Below, in pieces: positions 29,543-64,000 of a DNA stretch of 64,000 nt; positions within the stretch are counted from its first letter, which is position 1; each line of letters begins with the position of its first letter. The translations under genes were made by a program, and so were the position numbers. This DNA is from Paenibacillus stellifer. GTDB lineage: Bacteria; Bacillota; Bacilli; Paenibacillales; Paenibacillaceae. The DNA is taken from positions 402,501 through 466,500 of the forward strand of contig NZ_CP009286.1 of assembly GCF_000758685.1 (NCBI RefSeq), read 5' to 3'. The notes under the pieces are model-generated. The model was not told where the DNA came from, ran no database searches, and was given only the letters and a program-made list of their open reading frames with translations.

Positions 29543-32500
29543 ATGAAGCGTCATGCGTTCATCCTGCCGTTTCTTGTACTGCTGCTTGCCATACTGCCCG
29601 AGGCTGCTCTTGCCGCCAAGAAGGAAGTGGCTTACAGGGCGGAGCTGGACTATCCCCCTTATAAATATGTTCAGAACAATTACTTGACCGGTTTTGATAT
29701 CGATCTGACGAACCGGATCTTTGAGAAGCAGACGTACCACGTGGATTACAGCAGTGAACCTTGGAACAAGGTGTATCGGCAGCTGGTGAACGGGGAAATC
29801 GATACGGGCGGCCTGATGGCGGTTAACGCCGATCGGGCGCGGGACATACTCTACTCCAAGCCGGTGATGCAGACCTTCATATCGGTGTATGCCAGACCGG
29901 GATTTACAGGGCAGGTCACGCTTAAGAATTTGGGAAGTTACAGGATTGGCGTGGGCAAGGGGCAGTATACGGAGAGCGTGCTTCTCAAGAAGGCGGGAGT
30001 CAGCGGATACACTGCGTATCCGACGGTTGCCGAAGCTCTTGATGCCCTGACGAAGGGCCATATCGATCTGCTCTTCGAGAATCAATCGGTCGTTGACTAT
30101 CTCATTGTCGAAGAGGGATTAACGGGGAAGATCATACATAAATTGAGAAATTTATATCCGGCAGATGTGGCCTACGGCGTGAGCAAGGACTCGGCAGAAC
30201 TGATTCCCTATATCAATAAGCGCCTGGATCTCCTTCAGCGGGACGGAACCTTCGAGCAGCTGTACCAGCAGTATTTCTTCAGCCATTCCGATGGATATAT
30301 GGATCAGAAGCGCTACCGGGCTATTCTGTGGCTTGCCGCCGCCGTTCTTCTGATGACCGCAGGCATTCTCCTTCTCCGCATATACATCGGGCGTCTGCGC
30401 AAGGGACTCCGCGCCGAACAGCGTTTCACGGAGAGCATCATCGAGCATACAGGCGTGTTCGTGCTGGCGGTCCGGGAGGACCGGACGATCATGCGGCTTA
30501 ACAAGCTCGGTGAACAGGTTCTCGGGGTCAGCGAAGCGGAGCTGATCGGAAGAAAACTGGACGAGGCGGCAATTATAATTCCGGGTGCGAGCCAGATCAA
30601 GGAGCTGCTGCATCGCGCGGTCGCCTATCATTTTGTCGACCGAAAGGAGCTGCAGATTCCGGAGAACAGTCCGGATGGCAGATTCTATCTGTGCCGGACG
30701 ACGCTGATCAGGGAGCTCGGAGGCCGCGACTCGGACACTTTTGTGCTGATCGGGATCGATATCGATGAACAAAAGCGCAATGAGCTGAAGCTGCATTCCA
30801 GCTACTGCAAGCTGGAGGCGGCGAACCGGGAGCTGGCGCATGCCCAGGAGGAACTCCAGGAGCATAACGAGAAGCTGGGATTCAGCGAACGGCGGTTCCG
30901 TTTGGCGGTTGAAGCCTCGGGGGCTTACATCTGGGAGCTGGAGATCGATAGCTGGACGTATTGGGTCTCCGAGCGATGGTATGAGACGATGGGGTTCACC
31001 GAGAAGGGCATCGACCGCTCTGTCGAATCGCTCCTGATGCTCATTCATCCGGACGACAGGGAGTATTCGGACCGCGCGCTGTACGATCATCTTGCAGGCC
31101 GTACACCAGTCTATGAGACAGAGTACCGGATGCGGACCGAAGACGGAAGATATCTCTGGTTCGAGGTCAGAGGCAAGTCCATCGGAGATATCGGCGGTGG
31201 CCGCCCGCTGTTTATCGGATCGCTGATCGACATCACCCACCGGAAGCAGATAGAGTTCAAGCTGAGCAACAGCTACCAGGAGCTTGAGGCAACCTATGAG
31301 CAGCTTACAGCCACTCAGCATGAGCTCATGGAGCATTATGATATTTTGCTCGAGAATCAGAAGGAAATGCATCATCTCGCTTATTTCGATTCCTTAAGCC
31401 ATCTGCCGAACCGTCCGTATCTGCTGGATGCGATGGAGAAATATTTCCTCTTTCCCGGAGGAAATGCCGCGCTGCTGTTCGTGGATACGGACAACTTCAA
31501 ATATATCAATGACACGATGGGCCATAAGTTCGGCGATATTCTGATCCGGCAGATGAGCGAGAGATTGCAGGAGATTTTATCCGGAGAAGGCAGCATGCTC
31601 TCCCGCCTGGGAGGAGATGAATTCGTAATCTTCGTCAAGGATGTCGCAGGCAGGGATGATGTGACGCGCATGGCCGAGAACATTATCTGCGAGTTCAAGA
31701 AGCCGTTCTCGATCGGCGAGAGCAGCATCTATGTCTCGGTGAGCGTCGGCATTTCCTTTTATCCGGAAGACGGAAGCTCCACGGAGGAGATTCTCAAGAA
31801 CGCCGATATTGCCATGTACCGGGCCAAAGAAGCGGGCAAGGGCATTTATGCCGTGTATGACAAATCGATGCACACCGAATTCAGCGAACGGATGATGATC
31901 GAGAAGCATCTGCGCAGCGCGCTCGACAATGCGGAGTTTGAGCTGTACTATCAACCCCAGGTGGAGATTGCGACAGGCTCCATTACCGGCTTCGAAGCAC
32001 TGATCCGCTGGAACAGCCCCGAGCTTGGCTTCGTGTCGCCTCTGACGTTCATCCAGATTGCCGAGGATTCGCGGCTGATTATTCCGATCGGAAGGTGGGT
32101 GCTGCGAGAGGCCTGCTTCTTCATGAAATCAGTGTGCCGGGACCGGCGCCATTCCTACAAGATCTCGGTTAACATTTCGGTGATCCAGTTGCTTCAGGAC
32201 GACTTTATCGATATGCTAACCGAAATTCTTGAAGAAAGCGGCATGGCGCCGGAATGCCTGGAGCTTGAGATCACGGAGTCGGTCTTTATCGAATCGTATG
32301 AGCGGACGATCGCCAAGCTCAACGAGCTGCGCTCAAGGGGCATCCGCATTGCGCTGGACGATTTCGGCACAGGCTATTCCTCGCTTAGCTACCTGCAGCA
32401 GCTTCCGATCTCCACGCTGAAAATGGACAAGACCTTCATCGACCCCCTTCCGGGCGACCCCTTCAGCCAGTCATTCATCCGGACGATGGTGTCGCTGGGC

Positions 32501-32748: not shown

Positions 32749-33786
32749 CTAAAGCACGATAATCCGGTTCTTCCCCGTCTTCTTCGCTTCGTACAGGGCA
32801 TCGTCAGCTTTTTGAAAGACATAGCTCTTCGAATCCGCGCCCTGAAAATCATGCATGCCGATGCTCACCGTCACCGACTTTCCTTCCATCTCGGAAATAT
32901 GGTGGCCGGCGACGCCGGTCCTTATCCGTTCCATAATGTCCCGCGCTTCCTCTAGCGTCTTGGCGGTCAGAATGATGGCGAATTCCTCTCCGCCGTATCG
33001 GGCGGCAAAATCGTCGGTTCCAATATGGAAGAGCACCTCGGACGCAACCTGCTTCAGCGCGATGTCGCCGACCCAGTGGCCGTAGGTGTCGTTCACTTTC
33101 TTGAAGTTATCGATATCGAGAATCGCCAGCTGCATGGGAAAAGGATTGGATTGCTGGTGATCGATCAGCCAGCCCAAGTATTCATGGAAAGTCTTATGGT
33201 TGTATAAGTCGGTCAGCGGGTCGATTTTGGACAGGCGGTCCATGATGATGTTCTGAATCCGCAGATCCTGCTCGGTTTTCTCGGAATTCGCAAGGGAACG
33301 GATCAGGTCGTTGCCGCGCCGGATGACGCCAAGCCCGGTCAGGGCAAGAGCGGCGAACATCATGCCGATCAGCAACGTGTCTGGCAGCTGGGAGGCGTTC
33401 AAGCCTTGAACTTCTCCAAGTATCGCCAGAAACAGGAGCGCCCCCGCGGCAGAAGCGAACAGGTAGGAGGTTCTCATGTAGATCATGGATACCAGCAGCG
33501 GGAGAGCCATAATCAGCGGCCATACACGAACATCCGGAGCCAGAAACGCGACGATCAGAACGGATATAACATAGCTTCCAACCGTGATGGAAACTTCGCT
33601 TGCATCGGGCTTCCATTTGCAGATGCTTTCAAGCAGAACAATGATACCCACAATAATCAAATCAGGCAGAATGAGGCGGCTGTTTAACAGTTGACTTGAT
33701 GTATGAATAAGCAGCACAATCCAGAAGGCATTCAGCAGCGCACGGTTCCAATTGAATTGGCGAGGAGGTTGCAAAGGGTTGGGCAT
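32749..33786 (-). CDS. Membrane-bound diguanylate cyclase (GGDEF)
   Basis: A 345-residue protein with six or so hydrophobic N-terminal helices (about 20-200) and a C-terminal GGDEF domain. The active-site motif is YGGEEFAII (about residue 265), the accepted GGEEF variant, and the substrate contacts DIDNFKKVNDTYGHWVGD are present. No RxxD inhibitory site is visible five residues before it. It is likely a c-di-GMP synthase responding to a membrane signal. Start: ATG 33786, seven bases after TGAGGA; an in-frame start at 33966 would add a segment unlike the family and lies in the promoter region. Confidence 0.9.
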   Translation of the reverse strand: MPNPLQPPRQFNWNRALLNAFWIVLLIHTSSQLLNSRLILPDLIIVGIIVLLESICKWKPDASEVSITVGSYVISVLIVAFLAPDVRVWPLIMALPLLVSMIYMRTSYLFASAAGALLFLAILGEVQGLNASQLPDTLLIGMMFAALALTGLGVIRRGNDLIRSLANSEKTEQDLRIQNIIMDRLSKIDPLTDLYNHKTFHEYLGWLIDHQQSNPFPMQLAILDIDNFKKVNDTYGHWVGDIALKQVASEVLFHIGTDDFAARYGGEEFAIILTAKTLEEARDIMERIRTGVAGHHISEMEGKSVTVSIGMHDFQGADSKSYVFQKADDALYEAKKTGKNRIIVL

Positions 33787-33989: not shown

Positions 33990-34013
33990 GCTAATGGCTT
34001 AAAAAATCTTGCT

Positions 34014-34080
34014 GTTCGTATATCCTCAGAAATACGGTTTGAGGGTCTCTACAGGGAACCGTAAATTCCCGGCTACGGAT
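34014..34080 (+). ncRNA. Purine riboswitch, guanine type
   Basis: The three-way junction can be drawn in full. P1: GTTCGTA (34014-34020) with TACGGAT (34074-34080). P2: CCTCAGA with TTTGAGG around the loop AATACGG. P3: GGGAA with TTCCC around CCGTAAA. The junction has GTCTCTAC, and the specificity base before the P1 3' strand is C (34073), as in guanine aptamers; a U would mean adenine. It lies upstream of an FAD oxidoreductase gene, an unusual target. Confidence 0.87.
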
Positions 34081-34122
34081 GGGCGCCCTCTTTGGCGTGC
34101 CCAGGTCCTGGACGGGATTTTT
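34067..34122 (+). terminator. Candidate riboswitch expression platform terminator
   Basis: TCCCG (34067-34071) could pair with CGGGA (34113-34117), enclosing a GGGCGCC/GGCGTGCCC hairpin and followed by TTTTT. Its 5' arm overlaps the P3/P1 strand of the aptamer, as expected for a ligand-promoted or ligand-released terminator. The middle has a large internal loop, so this is provisional. Confidence 0.45.
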
Positions 34123-48945: not shown

Positions 48946-49388
48946 GAGACATCCTCCTAACGGATAAACTCCAGGCAGTGCCCCAGCGGGCGTAACCGGA
49001 GCTGCAATGATTACGTTTACATTCTATAGTATAGTTACACGATTTTAAACGTATTGCCACATTCTATTGTGCAACTTTAGGTCAGGGTAATCAATTCAAC
49101 CTTTCGTCCAATCCGTTCGAAAAAAGGCATCATTGCGCAGGCTTCATTTCGGCGGCCCAAAGGATCGGGGGAGACGCGCAATCGGCGGTCGGGACCATAA
49201 ACCTATATAAATCCTTCCAGTAATCCACTAGAATTTGATTAGTGGGACGAAGATGTGGGTATTAGTAGTTTATAGTTCCTAACGACTAGAGGGTTTTACA
49301 TAAATATTGGAATTTAGTTCACTGCCAGTCGCCGTTGCAGGCACTCAATTTTAGGTTTCAGCCGCGCATTGAATGTATTGTCATTTTT
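48946..49388. other. Intergenic stretch between odhA and the sinI leader
   Basis: Holds the odhA promoter region on the minus strand, with CGTTTA/TAAACG arms around 49015-49052 and TATACT/TATAGA boxes but no convincing -35. CCACTA and TAGTGG (49225-49245) form a small inverted repeat. No coding sequence is seen. Confidence 0.4.
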
Positions 49389-49421
49389 TTGACACACTTT
49401 TAGGCGAACATCTTGTATAAT
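49389..49421 (+). promoter_or_regulatory. Promoter region of sinI leader
   Basis: TATAAT at 49416-49421 is a perfect -10. The nearest -35, TTGACA at 49389-49394, is 21 bases upstream, longer than normal, so the promoter may need an activator or use another -35. Confidence 0.5.
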
Positions 49422-49467
49422 ATCTTTGCAAGCTTATCGCTTAACACAACATCATAAGATCCTTGAA

Positions 49468-49558
49468 TGCAAGGATCCAGCAAAAGGTAAACCTGTTGAA
49501 AAGCAGGGGCACAAAGTCTCGGGTCTAAGGTTATTAAGGGAAACAGACGGGGGGAAGA
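49468..49558 (+). ncRNA. Cyclic di-GMP-I (GEMM) riboswitch
   Basis: The core has GGTAAACC (49486-49493), a 6-bp stem CCTGTT/AGCAGG closed by a GAAA tetraloop (49498-49501), then GGCACAAAGTCTC and GGGTCTAAGG (to 49530). These are the conserved GEMM blocks GGCAAACC, GNRA loop, GGGNCRCAAAGCC and GGCCUAA. A second helix, GTCT with AGAC, follows. P1 could not be drawn with certainty. It lies about 75 bases before a SinI-like gene. Confidence 0.82.
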
Positions 49559-49610
49559 AGCTTCCGTGCGTGTTATCCTCGTAACTATGACGGCTGGACT
49601 GCCTGGGGAC

Positions 49611-49631
49611 AAAATCTTAGGAGGAGATTTT
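49611..49631 (+). promoter_or_regulatory. Hairpin holding the sinI ribosome binding site in its loop
   Basis: AAAATCT (49611-49617) and AGATTTT (49625-49631) can form a 7-bp stem whose loop, TAGGAGG, is the Shine-Dalgarno sequence. The stem ends at the TTG start codon, so pairing could limit translation and may be linked to the upstream riboswitch. Confidence 0.45.
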
Positions 49632-49784
49632 TTGAACAAGTCCAACCAGGGGAATAACGGAGAACTGCAGACGGTCGCTTTGGATATGGAATGGGTGCAG
49701 CTGATGCTCGCCGCCAAGAAGCAGGGGATTCACGCGGATGAGATCCGGCGGTTCTTGGGCGACAAGACACTCAAAGCCATGTGA
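49632..49784 (+). CDS. sinI: SinI-like anti-repressor
   Basis: A 50-residue protein with an anti-repressor SinI domain: LDMEWVQLMLAAKKQGIHADEIRRFL corresponds closely to B. subtilis SinI LDQEWVELMVEAKEANISPEEIRKYL. SinI binds SinR and removes it from DNA, relieving repression of matrix genes. Start: TTG 49632 with AGGAGG seven bases upstream. The gene is not co-transcribed with sinR as in B. subtilis but converges on it, and it carries a c-di-GMP-I riboswitch in its leader. Confidence 0.82.
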   Translation: MNKSNQGNNGELQTVALDMEWVQLMLAAKKQGIHADEIRRFLGDKTLKAM

Positions 49785-49820: not shown

Positions 49821-49852
49821 AGAGGACATGACGGCGCGGCGTCATGTCCTCT
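49821..49852. terminator. Hairpin between converging sinI and sinR genes
   Basis: AGAGGACATGAC and GTCATGTCCTCT are perfect 12-bp arms. The T-run is short on both sides. Confidence 0.75.
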
Positions 49853-49883: not shown

Positions 49884-50222
49884 TCACTGGTTCTTCTGTT
49901 CAATCCGCCATTTCTGGTAATCCAGAAATTCCTTGAACTCCCTCTTGCTGACCCCTGAAGCCATAGCTTCCTGAACCAGCTTGAACCAGTCGGAGTCGAG
50001 CGGTTCTTCCTCGGCGAGCTCTCCGTACAGAAGAATGTGGACGGAGACATCCAGAGCCTCTGCAATTTTCTCGATGAACTGGATGGAGGGGTTGGATTGA
50101 ATATTGCGTTCGACATTGCTTAAGTATGATTTAGCCACATCCGCCCTGCCGGCAAGCTCGGATAAAGATAATCCCTTCTCCTGGCGAAGCTGTTGAATGT
50201 GCTGTCCAATATTGTCCGGCAC
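49884..50222 (-). CDS. sinR: SinR-like transcriptional repressor
   Basis: A 112-residue homologue of SinR, the repressor of biofilm matrix genes. The N-terminal helix-turn-helix is IGQHIQQLRQEKGLSLSELA with GRADVAKSYLSNVERNIQSNPSIQFIEKIAEALDVSVHILL. The C-terminal SinI/SinR dimerisation segment SDWFKLVQEAMASGVSKREFKEFLDYQKW is very similar to B. subtilis SinR. Start: GTG 50222, supported by an extended -10 (TGCTATACT on the minus strand, -10 at 50257-50262); a longer frame to 50300 would start upstream of the promoter. It converges on the SinI-like gene. Confidence 0.9.
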   Translation of the reverse strand: MPDNIGQHIQQLRQEKGLSLSELAGRADVAKSYLSNVERNIQSNPSIQFIEKIAEALDVSVHILLYGELAEEEPLDSDWFKLVQEAMASGVSKREFKEFLDYQKWRIEQKNQ

Positions 50223-50256
50223 GGTAAATAATGCTCCCTCCTTGTTTTTTGGTATA

Positions 50257-50262
50257 AGTATA
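50257..50262 (-). promoter_or_regulatory. Extended -10 promoter of sinR-like gene
   Basis: On the minus strand TGCTATACT reads toward sinR, 35 bases before the GTG start at 50222. Confidence 0.6.
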
Positions 50263-50365
50263 GCAAAGGTCCGCCCAAAAGGAAAACTAGCTTTTACCAT
50301 TTATGAGCTTAACAGGGAAGTTTATTTAACGGCAGCCAGGCTGCGGCTCTGAAAATAATCATATC

Positions 50366-54003: not shown

Positions 54004-55842
54004 CTAAATGGCGGCCTCCGCGAGACGGAGCTGCCGGCTCTCGATATAGCGGATAAAGAGCTCGGTAAGCTCCGGATCGAACTGCGTTCCCGCACAGGCC
54101 CGCAGCTCCACGATCGCTTCCTCCACAGATTTGGTCGGCTGGTAGGGCCGCTCGGTCGTCATGGCGTCGAAGGAATCGATGACCGTCAGCATCCGGCACA
54201 ATCTTGGAATCTGCTCGCCCTTGAAGCCGTGCGGATAGCCCTTGCCGTCATATCTTTCGTGATGAAGCTCGATGTAGGGCGCCAGTTCTTTATATTTAAC
54301 GTTGGTCGAGGCCATTTCCTTGCCCCAGGTAACATGCCATTTGACCATTTCCCATTCCTCGGCGGACAGCTTCTCCTTCTTGTTCAGAATGCCCCAAGGG
54401 ATTTCCAGCTTGCCGATATCGTGGATCAGCGCGCCAAGCGTGAATTGGCGTTTCGTGGAATTATCCAGCTCCAGCAGCTCGCTCATGTCCATTGCATAGC
54501 GGAATACCCGTTTGGAATGCTTGAACGTCTCCAGATCCTTGTACATGAACAGGCGCAGCTGCTGCTCGATGTCCCGGACATCCTGGCTGAAGTCGATTTC
54601 CCGCTCAAGCGTCGACTGGCGGCCGTAAATATGGACCATGTTCTTGCCCTGCTTCTTGGCATAGTAGAGAGCCTGGTCGGCCTCCTCCACCAGCTGCGAT
54701 TTATCGTGGATGTCAAGGCGGAAGCCCGCAATGCCTGCTGAGAAGGAGAGACAGCCTTGCGGAAAAATCTCGGCTCCTTCAAAGGGAGAATTATTGAGCG
54801 TCCTGCGCAGACGTTCGAGGAAGCTGTAGGCCTCCGCCGTATCGAGTCCGGGCATCAGCAGCGTGAATTCCTCCCCGCCGTACCGGGAGACGAGCATATC
54901 TTCACCGCCGCATTCCCGGGTCAGGAGATCCGCCAGGAACACGATCAGGCCGTCGCCTTTTAAATGGCCGAAATGATCGTTGTATTTCTTGAAATCGTCG
55001 ATGTCGATCATGGCGAGCGAGAGGGAAGCGCCGGAGTTGCAGGCTTTACGGATCTCCTCTTCAAGGGCCAGCTCGAAATAGCTGTGATTGAATAGTCCGG
55101 TGCGCGGATCACGGTTCGCCCGCTCTTCGATATCCCGGTACATCGCGAACATCCGCTTGAACGAATAGGACATCATAATGCTGATGCAGAGGAAAAGGCC
55201 GAGGCCGAATAATTGATTGTGGTACAGCAGGATGGTCAGCACCAGCGCAAGCACCAGCGTACAGAGATAGGCGAGAACCGTGTCCTTCAGCATGCCTTTC
55301 AGCGTGTCGTACAGATTCTCGTTAAAGGTCAAATAATAATAGAAAGCAATCAACAGTGTGTTCAGCGCAAAATACATCGCCATGGCTGCGGCATAGGCGG
55401 GCAGGTGGCCCTCCAACAGCGGTCCCTGTTCGCCCCCCAGCGCTCTGTAAATATAGGCGGCGGAAGTGATCATAATCGAATAGACCGCGAAATTGTTCAC
55501 ATGTCTCCACCACGCCAATCCCCGATCGATGAAGAAGATGGCGATTGCAGAAATCAGCAGGACGGTGAGGCTGAAGGAGGCCCCGAATACGAACAGGCAG
55601 GCGAGATACACGGAGGAGTCCAGGGATAAGCCGTTTCCCTGCGGGGGAAGCTGGAAGGTGAACACAATCAGGGATACGGCTGCGCCTGACAGGGCAAGCG
55701 CCCATATCCAGGCCGGGAAGCTGTAAGCCACGAACACGCCCTGATTGTACACGGCAAAAAGGGACACACCCGTTATGCACAGCAGCAGCCTGTACAGATA
55801 GCTCAAATTCAATTTGGAGACGGGTGCTTGTCCTTTATCCAT
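54004..55842 (-). CDS. Membrane GGDEF and HD-GYP domain protein
   Basis: A 612-residue protein. About six hydrophobic N-terminal segments (about 10-215), a GGDEF domain with RYGGEEFTLLM (about 324), and an HD-GYP phosphodiesterase domain with HSKRVFRYA, HDIGK (about 474) and HHERYDGKGYPHG (about 537). Both a synthase-type motif (GGEEF) and a phosphodiesterase domain are intact, so it may switch between making and degrading c-di-GMP. Start: ATG 55842, eight bases after AGGGAGGAGA. Terminator follows. Confidence 0.9.
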   Translation of the reverse strand: MDKGQAPVSKLNLSYLYRLLLCITGVSLFAVYNQGVFVAYSFPAWIWALALSGAAVSLIVFTFQLPPQGNGLSLDSSVYLACLFVFGASFSLTVLLISAIAIFFIDRGLAWWRHVNNFAVYSIMITSAAYIYRALGGEQGPLLEGHLPAYAAAMAMYFALNTLLIAFYYYLTFNENLYDTLKGMLKDTVLAYLCTLVLALVLTILLYHNQLFGLGLFLCISIMMSYSFKRMFAMYRDIEERANRDPRTGLFNHSYFELALEEEIRKACNSGASLSLAMIDIDDFKKYNDHFGHLKGDGLIVFLADLLTRECGGEDMLVSRYGGEEFTLLMPGLDTAEAYSFLERLRRTLNNSPFEGAEIFPQGCLSFSAGIAGFRLDIHDKSQLVEEADQALYYAKKQGKNMVHIYGRQSTLEREIDFSQDVRDIEQQLRLFMYKDLETFKHSKRVFRYAMDMSELLELDNSTKRQFTLGALIHDIGKLEIPWGILNKKEKLSAEEWEMVKWHVTWGKEMASTNVKYKELAPYIELHHERYDGKGYPHGFKGEQIPRLCRMLTVIDSFDAMTTERPYQPTKSVEEAIVELRACAGTQFDPELTELFIRYIESRQLRLAEAAI

Positions 55843-63597: not shown

Positions 63598-63647
63598 GGC
63601 TGAGCGCATGAGGTGCGGCTGCCTTGGCAAGGCGGGCTGCACGGCGA

Positions 63648-63745
63648 TGTCATTCCTACGCTGGCATTATCCAGATCAGGTATAAGGGTCAGTATCTTTG
63701 CGGGATACACTCTCAGCCGGCCGTTATTCCAGCACCCCTGGTTCA
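63648..63745 (-). ncRNA. TPP riboswitch (THI element)
   Basis: Minus-strand blocks typical of THI elements appear in order: GGGGTGCTGG, CTGAGAG, ACCC, ACCTGATCTGGATAATGCC and AGCGTAGGAA. It precedes the thiamine-precursor transport operon and a terminator, so thiamine pyrophosphate would switch the operon off. Confidence 0.93.
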
Positions 63746-64000
63746 TATGAAGTTCCGGGCATTTCTTCTGCTGCTTACGGGTATTATAGACACAGGACTC
63801 GGGAATTGTCCAGTGGGCGGGGACCCGGTCAAGGCCTTATAACGGGCGGAATTTTCCGGAAACAGGCTGTTGTTCTGCATGTCCCGGCGGCCTCCCGCCT
63901 GCTGCCTGCGCTTTCTGCCCGGCACTGGAATTGGGCGGTCCAACCGCGACGCGGGCCATAAGGAACGGCGTCAGGCGAAATCTGGCGGCGTCTCCGTCCG
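63746..64000. other. Promoter region of the thi transport operon and window end
   Basis: On the minus strand TGGACA (63807-63812) and TATAAT (63783-63788), spacer 18, would start the riboswitch transcript. Beyond about 63820 no gene or other feature is recognised up to the window end. Confidence 0.5.

Follow-up and report, generated by a model that had tools for sequence, protein, structure and literature searches.

A conserved c-di-GMP-I riboswitch aptamer precedes sinI in Paenibacillus stellifer and its relatives and probably controls SinI translation in cis

SinI and SinR constitute a classic biofilm switch, and c-di-GMP is a widespread signal for sessility. In Bacillus subtilis the two genes are arranged as a sinI-sinR operon. 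The input described for B. subtilis sinI is Spo0A~P (PMC11925247). A c-di-GMP riboswitch upstream of sinI was listed in 2015 as "(c-di-GMP)-sinI" (BMMGA3_08510) among the RNA-seq-mapped 5'-UTRs of Bacillus methanolicus MGA3, where it was predicted with Rfam; in the available part of that paper, which concerns another genus, it appears as a table entry and one sentence that give no mechanism, sign or class (PMC4342826). In 2023, a c-di-GMP-I riboswitch from Paenibacillus sp. FSL P4 was described as acting in antisense on a SinR-like gene (PMC9943018). This locus, from another Paenibacillus, is probably of the same kind as that analysed here, but the main text assigns the riboswitch to the SinR-like gene and does not contain the term "sinI", whereas our locus has a sense sinI ORF; on our reading of that text, the small sinI ORF appears to have been left unconsidered (PMC9943018). 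The original prediction for the P. stellifer locus had known of no described case of such wiring, which does not hold in view of the B. methanolicus entry (PMC4342826) and the FSL P4 locus, given its probable likeness (PMC9943018). For Bacillus thuringiensis, upregulation of sinI at high c-di-GMP has been stated, with a citation of unpublished array data (PMC7793685). In Clostridioides difficile, biofilm is influenced by c-di-GMP riboswitches as well as by SinR-like proteins; the SinR-like regulators there affect c-di-GMP levels, and the accessible parts of the three sources mention no sin riboswitch (PMC6143707, PMC8653836, PMC8470499).

In the window, the whole stretch of 64,000 nucleotides of P. 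stellifer DNA analysed, to which all positions refer unless stated otherwise, cmscan identified a c-di-GMP-I riboswitch aptamer (RF01051) at 49476-49606 on the forward strand, with 66.8 bits (E 6.9e-11, gathering score 35 bits) over all 87 model positions. The original prediction had named a GEMM-I core at this site (GGTAAACC, a GAAA-capped stem, CACAAAG and GTCTAAGG), which is present in the sequence, and had proposed a covariance-model check, which gave this full-length match. In an RF01051 search of the whole 5.66-Mb single-contig genome its score was limited to 37.4 bits, as the match ended at a 46-nt P3-loop insert that is spanned by the cmscan alignment; eleven c-di-GMP-I matches were found in this genome, the leader element included, and all were above the cut-off. 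The P3-loop insert lies at 49536-49581 and has a similar counterpart in a close relative (L049), while the other members of the genus have shorter loops. The element shares with RF01051 the full-length match, the core motifs, the GAAA-capped P2, a P3 with receptor bulge and covarying helices. It differs in an extra 5' hairpin, an alternative partner inside the ORF for the 3' strand of P1, and its target, sinI. The extra hairpin, P0 (GATCCTT..AAGGATC, 49458-49477, forward strand), abuts P1 with one C in common, and its pattern recurred in 60/60 leaders of the genus. The 5' strand of P1 (CCAG, 49477-49480, forward strand) is complementary to 49603-49606.

The sinI ORF (49632-49784, forward strand, stop codon included) starts with TTG 25 nt downstream of the aptamer and encodes 50 amino acids. 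Its product is a stand-alone short protein with a PF08671 SinI domain (39.6 bits, cut-off 31.4 bits) and resembles the B. subtilis SinI chain of PDB entry 1b0n (1b0n_B, E 1.7e-4). The NCBIfam model for the Bacillus SinI equivalog (NF046031) gave 37.1 bits and its cut-off of 80 bits was not reached; by its sequence the ORF product is a SinI homologue outside this equivalog. Among the 17 matches listed, Paenibacillus sinensis HN-1 had the closest sinI, at 96% identity; all 17 listed named loci were from Paenibacillus, and 16 aligned with the query over 46-50 residues. The Shine-Dalgarno sequence AGGAGG (49619-49624, forward strand) lies in a small A+U-rich hairpin, as judged from sequence and fold. 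On the opposite strand, a sinR homologue (49884-50300, reverse strand) converges on sinI. Its product has an HTH_3 domain (PF01381, 56 bits) and a C-terminal SinI-like domain (PF08671, 44 bits), and it aligned with residues 2-110 of 111 of B. subtilis SinR (1b0n_A, E 2.8e-39, 137 bits). This alignment begins at residue 31 of the open frame, inside which the true sinR start is probably located. In the intergenic region, a hairpin at 49821-49852 (13-bp stem, -23.1 kcal/mol) is a probable bidirectional terminator; since it separates sinI from sinR, sinI looks like the sole gene after the leader. The 50-residue SinI-type protein, apparently the only gene behind the leader, and the converging SinR homologue had both been claimed from the letters of the window and were found as described. 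By script, 43/60 genus loci had an uninterrupted intergenic stem of 8 bp or more, in a count that misread L055 and L105 at the least. The locus resembles B. subtilis sinI-sinR in its SinI (1b0n_B) and SinR (1b0n_A) homologues and in a Spo0A-box-like sinI promoter, and differs in the convergent orientation of the genes and the c-di-GMP aptamer in the leader. A further SinI-domain frame, a possible SinR/SlrR paralogue of 123 amino acids as an open frame, was observed outside the window (G000:C1:1107592-1107672, reverse strand).

A PF08671 profile search of 150 genomes, that of P. stellifer included, gave a match in 87; approximately 31 of the 91 genomes from the genus had none. From among the matches listed, 60 genus loci were sampled, one per matching genus genome and including our own. 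cmscan placed an aptamer of the c-di-GMP-I clan before sinI in all 60 of them, so that the search of other Paenibacillus genomes for sinI genes with the same leader, which had been proposed for this locus, was positive throughout. The SinI ORF began 24-29 nt past the aptamer in every case and was 49-55 amino acids long, with TTG as start codon in 59 loci and GTG in one. With the same layout in 60/60 genus loci, the riboswitch-sinI arrangement is not due to chance. An OdhA match was found near sinI in 60/60 loci, which therefore represent one ancestral inherited locus and not 60 independent events. The aptamer helices are conserved with covariation among the relatives within the genus: over 51 distinct leaders, 98.5% of the cells in aptamer and P0 were paired, and 27 double-change cells were counted versus 9.9 ± 2.2 after shuffling (0/500 shuffles as high), whereas slid structures were merely 24-48% paired. 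For P0 alone, 98.6% of cells were paired in the genus alignment, with one pair varying between U-G, U-A and C-G; for P1, the count covered three of the four pairs, all invariant in the 51 distinct rows, and one P2 pair was open in 15/51 rows.

The analysis favours, with a probability of roughly 70%, a reading in which the leader acts as a c-di-GMP-I riboswitch, exerting translational control on sinI in cis and being ON with ligand, with SinI then countering SinR. Control of sinI in cis by a c-di-GMP riboswitch is, taken by itself, very likely. In the model, the 3' strand of P1, CUGGGGAC, would pair in the absence of c-di-GMP with GUCC-AA-CCAG in the sinI ORF, and this anti-P1 hairpin would enclose both the Shine-Dalgarno sequence and the TTG codon. 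With c-di-GMP bound, P1 would form, the outer hairpin would open at least partly, and SinI would be made; SinI would then antagonise the convergently encoded SinR and thereby switch on the SinR-repressed (matrix) genes. Ligand binding, the ON direction, Spo0A control and SinI-SinR antagonism in P. stellifer are predicted steps of this model. The original claim that c-di-GMP sets the amount of SinI, and hence the activity of SinR, is supported by the genus-wide conservation, by an exchange of aptamer class in relatives (see below) and by the complementarity of P1 and anti-P1 strands that extends into the ORF, and in this form it remains a prediction from sequence. The B. methanolicus entry (PMC4342826) and the B. 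thuringiensis statement (PMC7793685) count in favour of the reading, and the sinI loci outside the genus and the genus genomes in which an aptamer or a PF08671 match was not detected count against it.

The P1 3' strand, which serves as the left arm of the anti-P1 hairpin, is located at 49603-49610 (forward strand; CTGGGGA in 60/60 loci) and is complementary to the right arm GUCC-AA-CCAG at 49640-49649 (forward strand), inside the sinI ORF. The right arm was present in 60/60 loci as GTCCAACCAG, always starting at base 9 of the ORF. In the genus alignment the anti-P1 helix comprises 8 pairs with 100% of the cells paired and 7/8 pairs invariant; there is no covariation for it within the genus because the helix hardly varies. 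The codons TCC AAC CAG were invariant in 58/58 distinct sinI CDS, while other fully conserved residues that have synonymous codons (D18, E20, L24, A28, G32, R39 and F41) used 2-4 codons each. Two partly conserved residues outside the arm, K3 (AAG, 43/43) and D16 (GAT, 50/50), were likewise encoded by a single codon. A serine-codon effect (PMC11925247, accessible in part) was rejected as the cause of the invariant TCC, as it leaves the later invariant codons unexplained. The minimum free energy fold of the window leader (-68.1 kcal/mol) contains the anti-P1 hairpin around Shine-Dalgarno sequence and start, compared with -60.7 kcal/mol for the fold with P1 forced; the probability of the anti-P1 hairpin exceeded 0.5 in 59/60 free folds. 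By eye, the genus alignment showed no pairing of P0 or the aptamer core with the Shine-Dalgarno sequence that held across clades. With this complementarity in invariant codons the riboswitch platform looks translational, and one arm of the switch is apparently written into the sinI coding sequence.

In addition to the invariant codons, support for the anti-P1 helix comes from another genus, g33, in which 9/13 aptamer-bearing loci have GTCC-GC-CCAG; relative to the genus arm, the Asn codon is replaced by an Ala codon and the change is confined to the two bulged bases. The other four arms read ATCC-GC-CCAG (L214), GTCT-GC-CCGG (L208, L212) and ACCG-GC-CCAG (L218), with pairing retained through wobbles in L208 and L212 as judged by eye. 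The left arm is more variable in g33, and in L205 a C for U breaks a pair. The arm motif is retained in two truncated g33 loci (L207, L211). Two sinI leaders without a detected aptamer (L220, L222) were observed to retain another hairpin with complementarity to the beginning of the ORF, so that motif and aptamer are imperfectly coupled. In L216, also without aptamer, the anti-P1 arm motif was matched by chance.

The sign of control was assessed from fold energies computed without ligand or tertiary terms. Forcing a 4-bp P1 (3 bp in L053) had a median cost of 8.0 kcal/mol (window: 6.7 kcal/mol). With P1 forced, the cost of opening the region from -20 to +16 dropped by a median of 2.4 kcal/mol, with a decrease in 52/60 leaders (window: from 13.1 to 11.0 kcal/mol); for -20 to +13 the drop was 0.5 kcal/mol (38/60), and for -15 to +5 no drop was obtained (lower in just 17/60). 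The opening cost from the Shine-Dalgarno sequence to the start was unchanged, with a median difference of -0.1 kcal/mol and lower values in 2/60. This local cost is not moved by P1 because a GGAC:GUCC pairing and the small Shine-Dalgarno hairpin can persist; the latter has no covariation support in the genus alignment and persists in both states in the folds. The simple claim that P1 frees the Shine-Dalgarno sequence was thereby weakened, as only the wider footprint responds to forced P1, and the energies back an ON switch modestly.

A model with the same riboswitch and target and the reverse sign, in which c-di-GMP turns sinI OFF and high c-di-GMP keeps SinR active, is unlikely, though it deserves to be kept in mind. 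It would accord with a Shine-Dalgarno sequence that stays in its small hairpin when P1 is forced, with a local opening cost at the ribosome binding site that does not drop, and with the failure of the -20 to +16 cost to drop in 8/60 leaders. Against it stands the alternative partner of the P1 3' strand, which encloses the ribosome binding site, so that P1 and the anti-P1 hairpin are mutually exclusive; furthermore, the class II leaders of another genus of the family (g36) pair the Shine-Dalgarno sequence itself with their P1 3' strand. In all 11 of these leaders the minimum free energy fold pairs a C-run with the G-rich Shine-Dalgarno sequence, and the Rfam alignment of L158 identified the C-run as the P1 3' strand of class II. 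The folds of class I and class II thus share the predicted sign and both point to an ON switch. That c-di-GMP turns SinI ON is probable, to about the same degree as the reading as a whole.

An action of the element on transcription of sinI by termination or antitermination, instead of on translation, is improbable. Many Firmicute riboswitches do work in this way, and in part of the clade a T-run follows AGATT; yet a C interrupts the T-run in many members, no G+C-rich hairpin with a U-run was evident by eye in the gap of 24-29 nt between aptamer and start, and the invariant pairing partner lies downstream of the start codon.

Upstream of the leader, the sinI promoter contains a -10 box (TATAAT, 49416-49421, forward strand) that is conserved in the genus alignments, and a 0A-box-like element (TTTGACA, 49388-49394, forward strand) 21 bp upstream of it. 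This wide spacing resembles the spoIIG promoter of B. subtilis, which has a Spo0A box near -35. The 0A box has been quoted as TTCGACA in Paenibacillus polymyxa (PMC10782996, accessible in part). The motif [CT]GACA was found exactly 21 bp ahead of a TATAAT-like hexamer in 60/60 genus loci, and 343 of 6000 mononucleotide-shuffled upstream regions gave any match at a spacing of 20-22. Within the genus the box most often read ATCGACA (26 loci) or AACGACA (20), with the full TTCGACA in 8. The 21-bp spacing was also found in 11/11 g36 class II loci, four of them with merely a 4-of-6 hexamer, and in three loci from other families of the order (L106, L109, L113); it was 22 bp in L108, and no box was found in L165 and L167. 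The aptamer-bearing g33 loci had a spacing of 21 in 12/13 and 22 in one, with TGACA (10/13) or CGACA (3/13) as box core, which is farther from the 0A box. With the 0A-box-like motif in 60/60 genus loci, Spo0A control of sinI was probably retained and c-di-GMP control added. The original prediction had contrasted this locus with B. subtilis, where sinI would be controlled by Spo0A instead: Spo0A is indeed the described input in B. subtilis, and the "instead" does not apply to this locus. If transcription starts at the Spo0A-box-like promoter, sinI would have two gates, Spo0A~P on the DNA and c-di-GMP on the RNA.

Beyond the genus, the scan covered 19 loci of other families in the order. An aptamer above the cut-off was present in four (class I in L106 and L108, class II in L109 and L113) and in none of the other 15, some of which contain SinR-like frames only. 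Class II aptamers (RF01786) bind the same ligand as class I with an unrelated fold; in g36 and a small number of further genomes they stand before sinI, the predicted sign being the same. RF01786 matches occurred in 81/392 genomes of the order, in 79 of them above the cut-off; there was no RF01786 match in the P. stellifer genome, and none above the cut-off within the window. RF01786 sites were joined to PF08671 matches for 80 genomes, among the matches listed, plus G119. On this basis, RF01786 was matched in 12 g36 genomes among the matches listed, and in 11 of these, with G366 as the exception, a class II aptamer stands directly before sinI. These aptamers were confirmed by cmscan, with a gap of 46-50 nt between aptamer and SinI domain. 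All 11 loci have a converging SinI-domain frame with a SinR match by tblastn (11/11), and 6/11 of the sinI frames are below the Pfam cut-off for PF08671. OdhA was absent from all g36 loci within the stretch fetched, and their neighbourhoods therefore differ from that of the genus locus. Class II was also found directly upstream of SinI domains in G272 and at two G119 sites (one of them L113). It precedes the SinI domain by approximately 330 nt with a small ORF in between in G106 and by approximately 550 nt in G221; both were counted as non-direct. At the former site (L109), the short ORF between class II aptamer and sinI is accompanied by two SinR-like frames on the opposite strand, and at the latter (L166) sinI is immediately preceded by CTATGACGGCTGGATTGCC, apparently the 3' part of a class I aptamer, a small ORF and the class II aptamer both being located farther upstream. 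The replacement of class I by an unrelated class II at sinI argues for a selected c-di-GMP control.

In g33, PF08671 matches were found in 22/40 genomes, and 21 stand-alone sinI loci were scanned (20 at E <= 0.01, plus G195; G293 with a 47-aa frame was left out). A class I aptamer preceded sinI in 13/21, among them L212 below the cut-off of its best family and the weak L205 (39.9 bits); eight had no detected aptamer, including L207 and L211, the leaders of which appear truncated by eye. Together, L207, L211 and L205 form an apparent series of aptamer decay, 5'-truncated or weak-scoring before sinI, with the C for U in the left arm. The presumed sinR of g33, a longer SinI-domain frame, was divergent from sinI in 21/21 listed pairs, at a distance of 1.7 kb in G334 and of 3-4 kb in the other 20; thus, the aptamer stays with sinI when sinR is elsewhere.

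The ligand could in principle be c-AMP-GMP or that of the Rfam "GGC" variant, and it is for this variant that 42 of the 60 genus loci scored best (RF03167, c-di-GMP-I-GGC), with RF01051 best in 18. This possibility is very improbable. The window aptamer has its top score with RF01051. Across the genus leaders, GGTAAAC, CACAAAG and TGCC are invariant; via the model alignment they contain the positions G20, A47 and C92, which we take to be the residues that contact c-di-GMP, and with this numbering CACAAAG and GGTAAAC are of the c-di-GMP type. At the junction where the RF03167 consensus has GCGAA and that of RF01051 GCAAA, the window and all 60 leaders have ACAAA and not the GCGAA of the variant. 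The reading as a GGC variant was therefore dropped, the deciding residue being of the c-di-GMP-I type although RF03167 scores best in 42/60. The class II aptamers that take the place of class I in another genus of the family speak against a different ligand as well.

An antisense action on sinR, as published for the c-di-GMP-I element facing a SinR-like gene in Paenibacillus sp. FSL P4 (PMC9943018, accessible in part) and compatible with the convergent geometry of our locus, was rejected as the main model and is hardly to be expected, since a sense sinI ORF follows the aptamer after 24-29 nt in 60/60 genus loci, so that the element does not lack a sense target of its own, the complementary arm sits within that ORF, the script counted an uninterrupted intergenic stem (8 bp or longer) in 43/60 loci, and the presumed sinR of g33 is divergent in 21/21 listed pairs and 3-4 kb off in 20.

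Taken together, the riboswitch class is known and its target had been predicted once before in another genus; here the element is conserved across a genus, is matched by a second aptamer class elsewhere in the family and apparently has one switch arm in the coding sequence. Among the papers listed from the openly licensed PMC literature, none was found to describe conservation throughout the genus, the exchange of class I and class II or the in-ORF anti-P1 arm. The riboswitch before sinI, conserved across the genus, would link c-di-GMP directly with SinI-SinR, and c-di-GMP probably controls the biofilm switch directly, as far as can be read from the genomes; a possible entry of c-di-GMP into the matrix control of spore-formers is thus made testable. 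Two unrelated aptamers at one tiny gene amount to a natural replicate experiment in network rewiring. We lean slightly towards a broader view, in which SinI would serve recurrently as an effector of c-di-GMP among the Paenibacillaceae and their relatives, two or more unrelated aptamer classes having been recruited independently to the sinI leader behind a kept Spo0A promoter to form an AND gate of DNA and RNA on the biofilm switch. In this same view, the first SinI residues of the class I loci (S-N-Q or S-A-Q) would be dictated by the RNA switch and not by the protein, because the class I anti-P1 strand lies in the coding sequence. With a conserved riboswitch on sinI, the published antisense assignment would be corrected and the one-line B. 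methanolicus prediction would be given substance.

The P. stellifer genome has 29 GGDEF matches and one Spo0A_C match, in keeping with the favoured reading. Three of the GGDEF matches lie inside the window (31379-31840, forward strand; 32764-33228 and 54640-55119, reverse strand), one of them approximately 5 kb from the riboswitch. The window also contains a purine riboswitch (33996-34095, forward strand, 64.4 bits) and a TPP riboswitch (63636-63749, reverse strand) that, at 55.6 bits, is barely above the cut-off of 54.3 bits. Elsewhere in the genome, two c-di-GMP-I aptamers are arranged in tandem on one strand, 71 nt apart (G000:C1:735947-736027 and 736099-736179).
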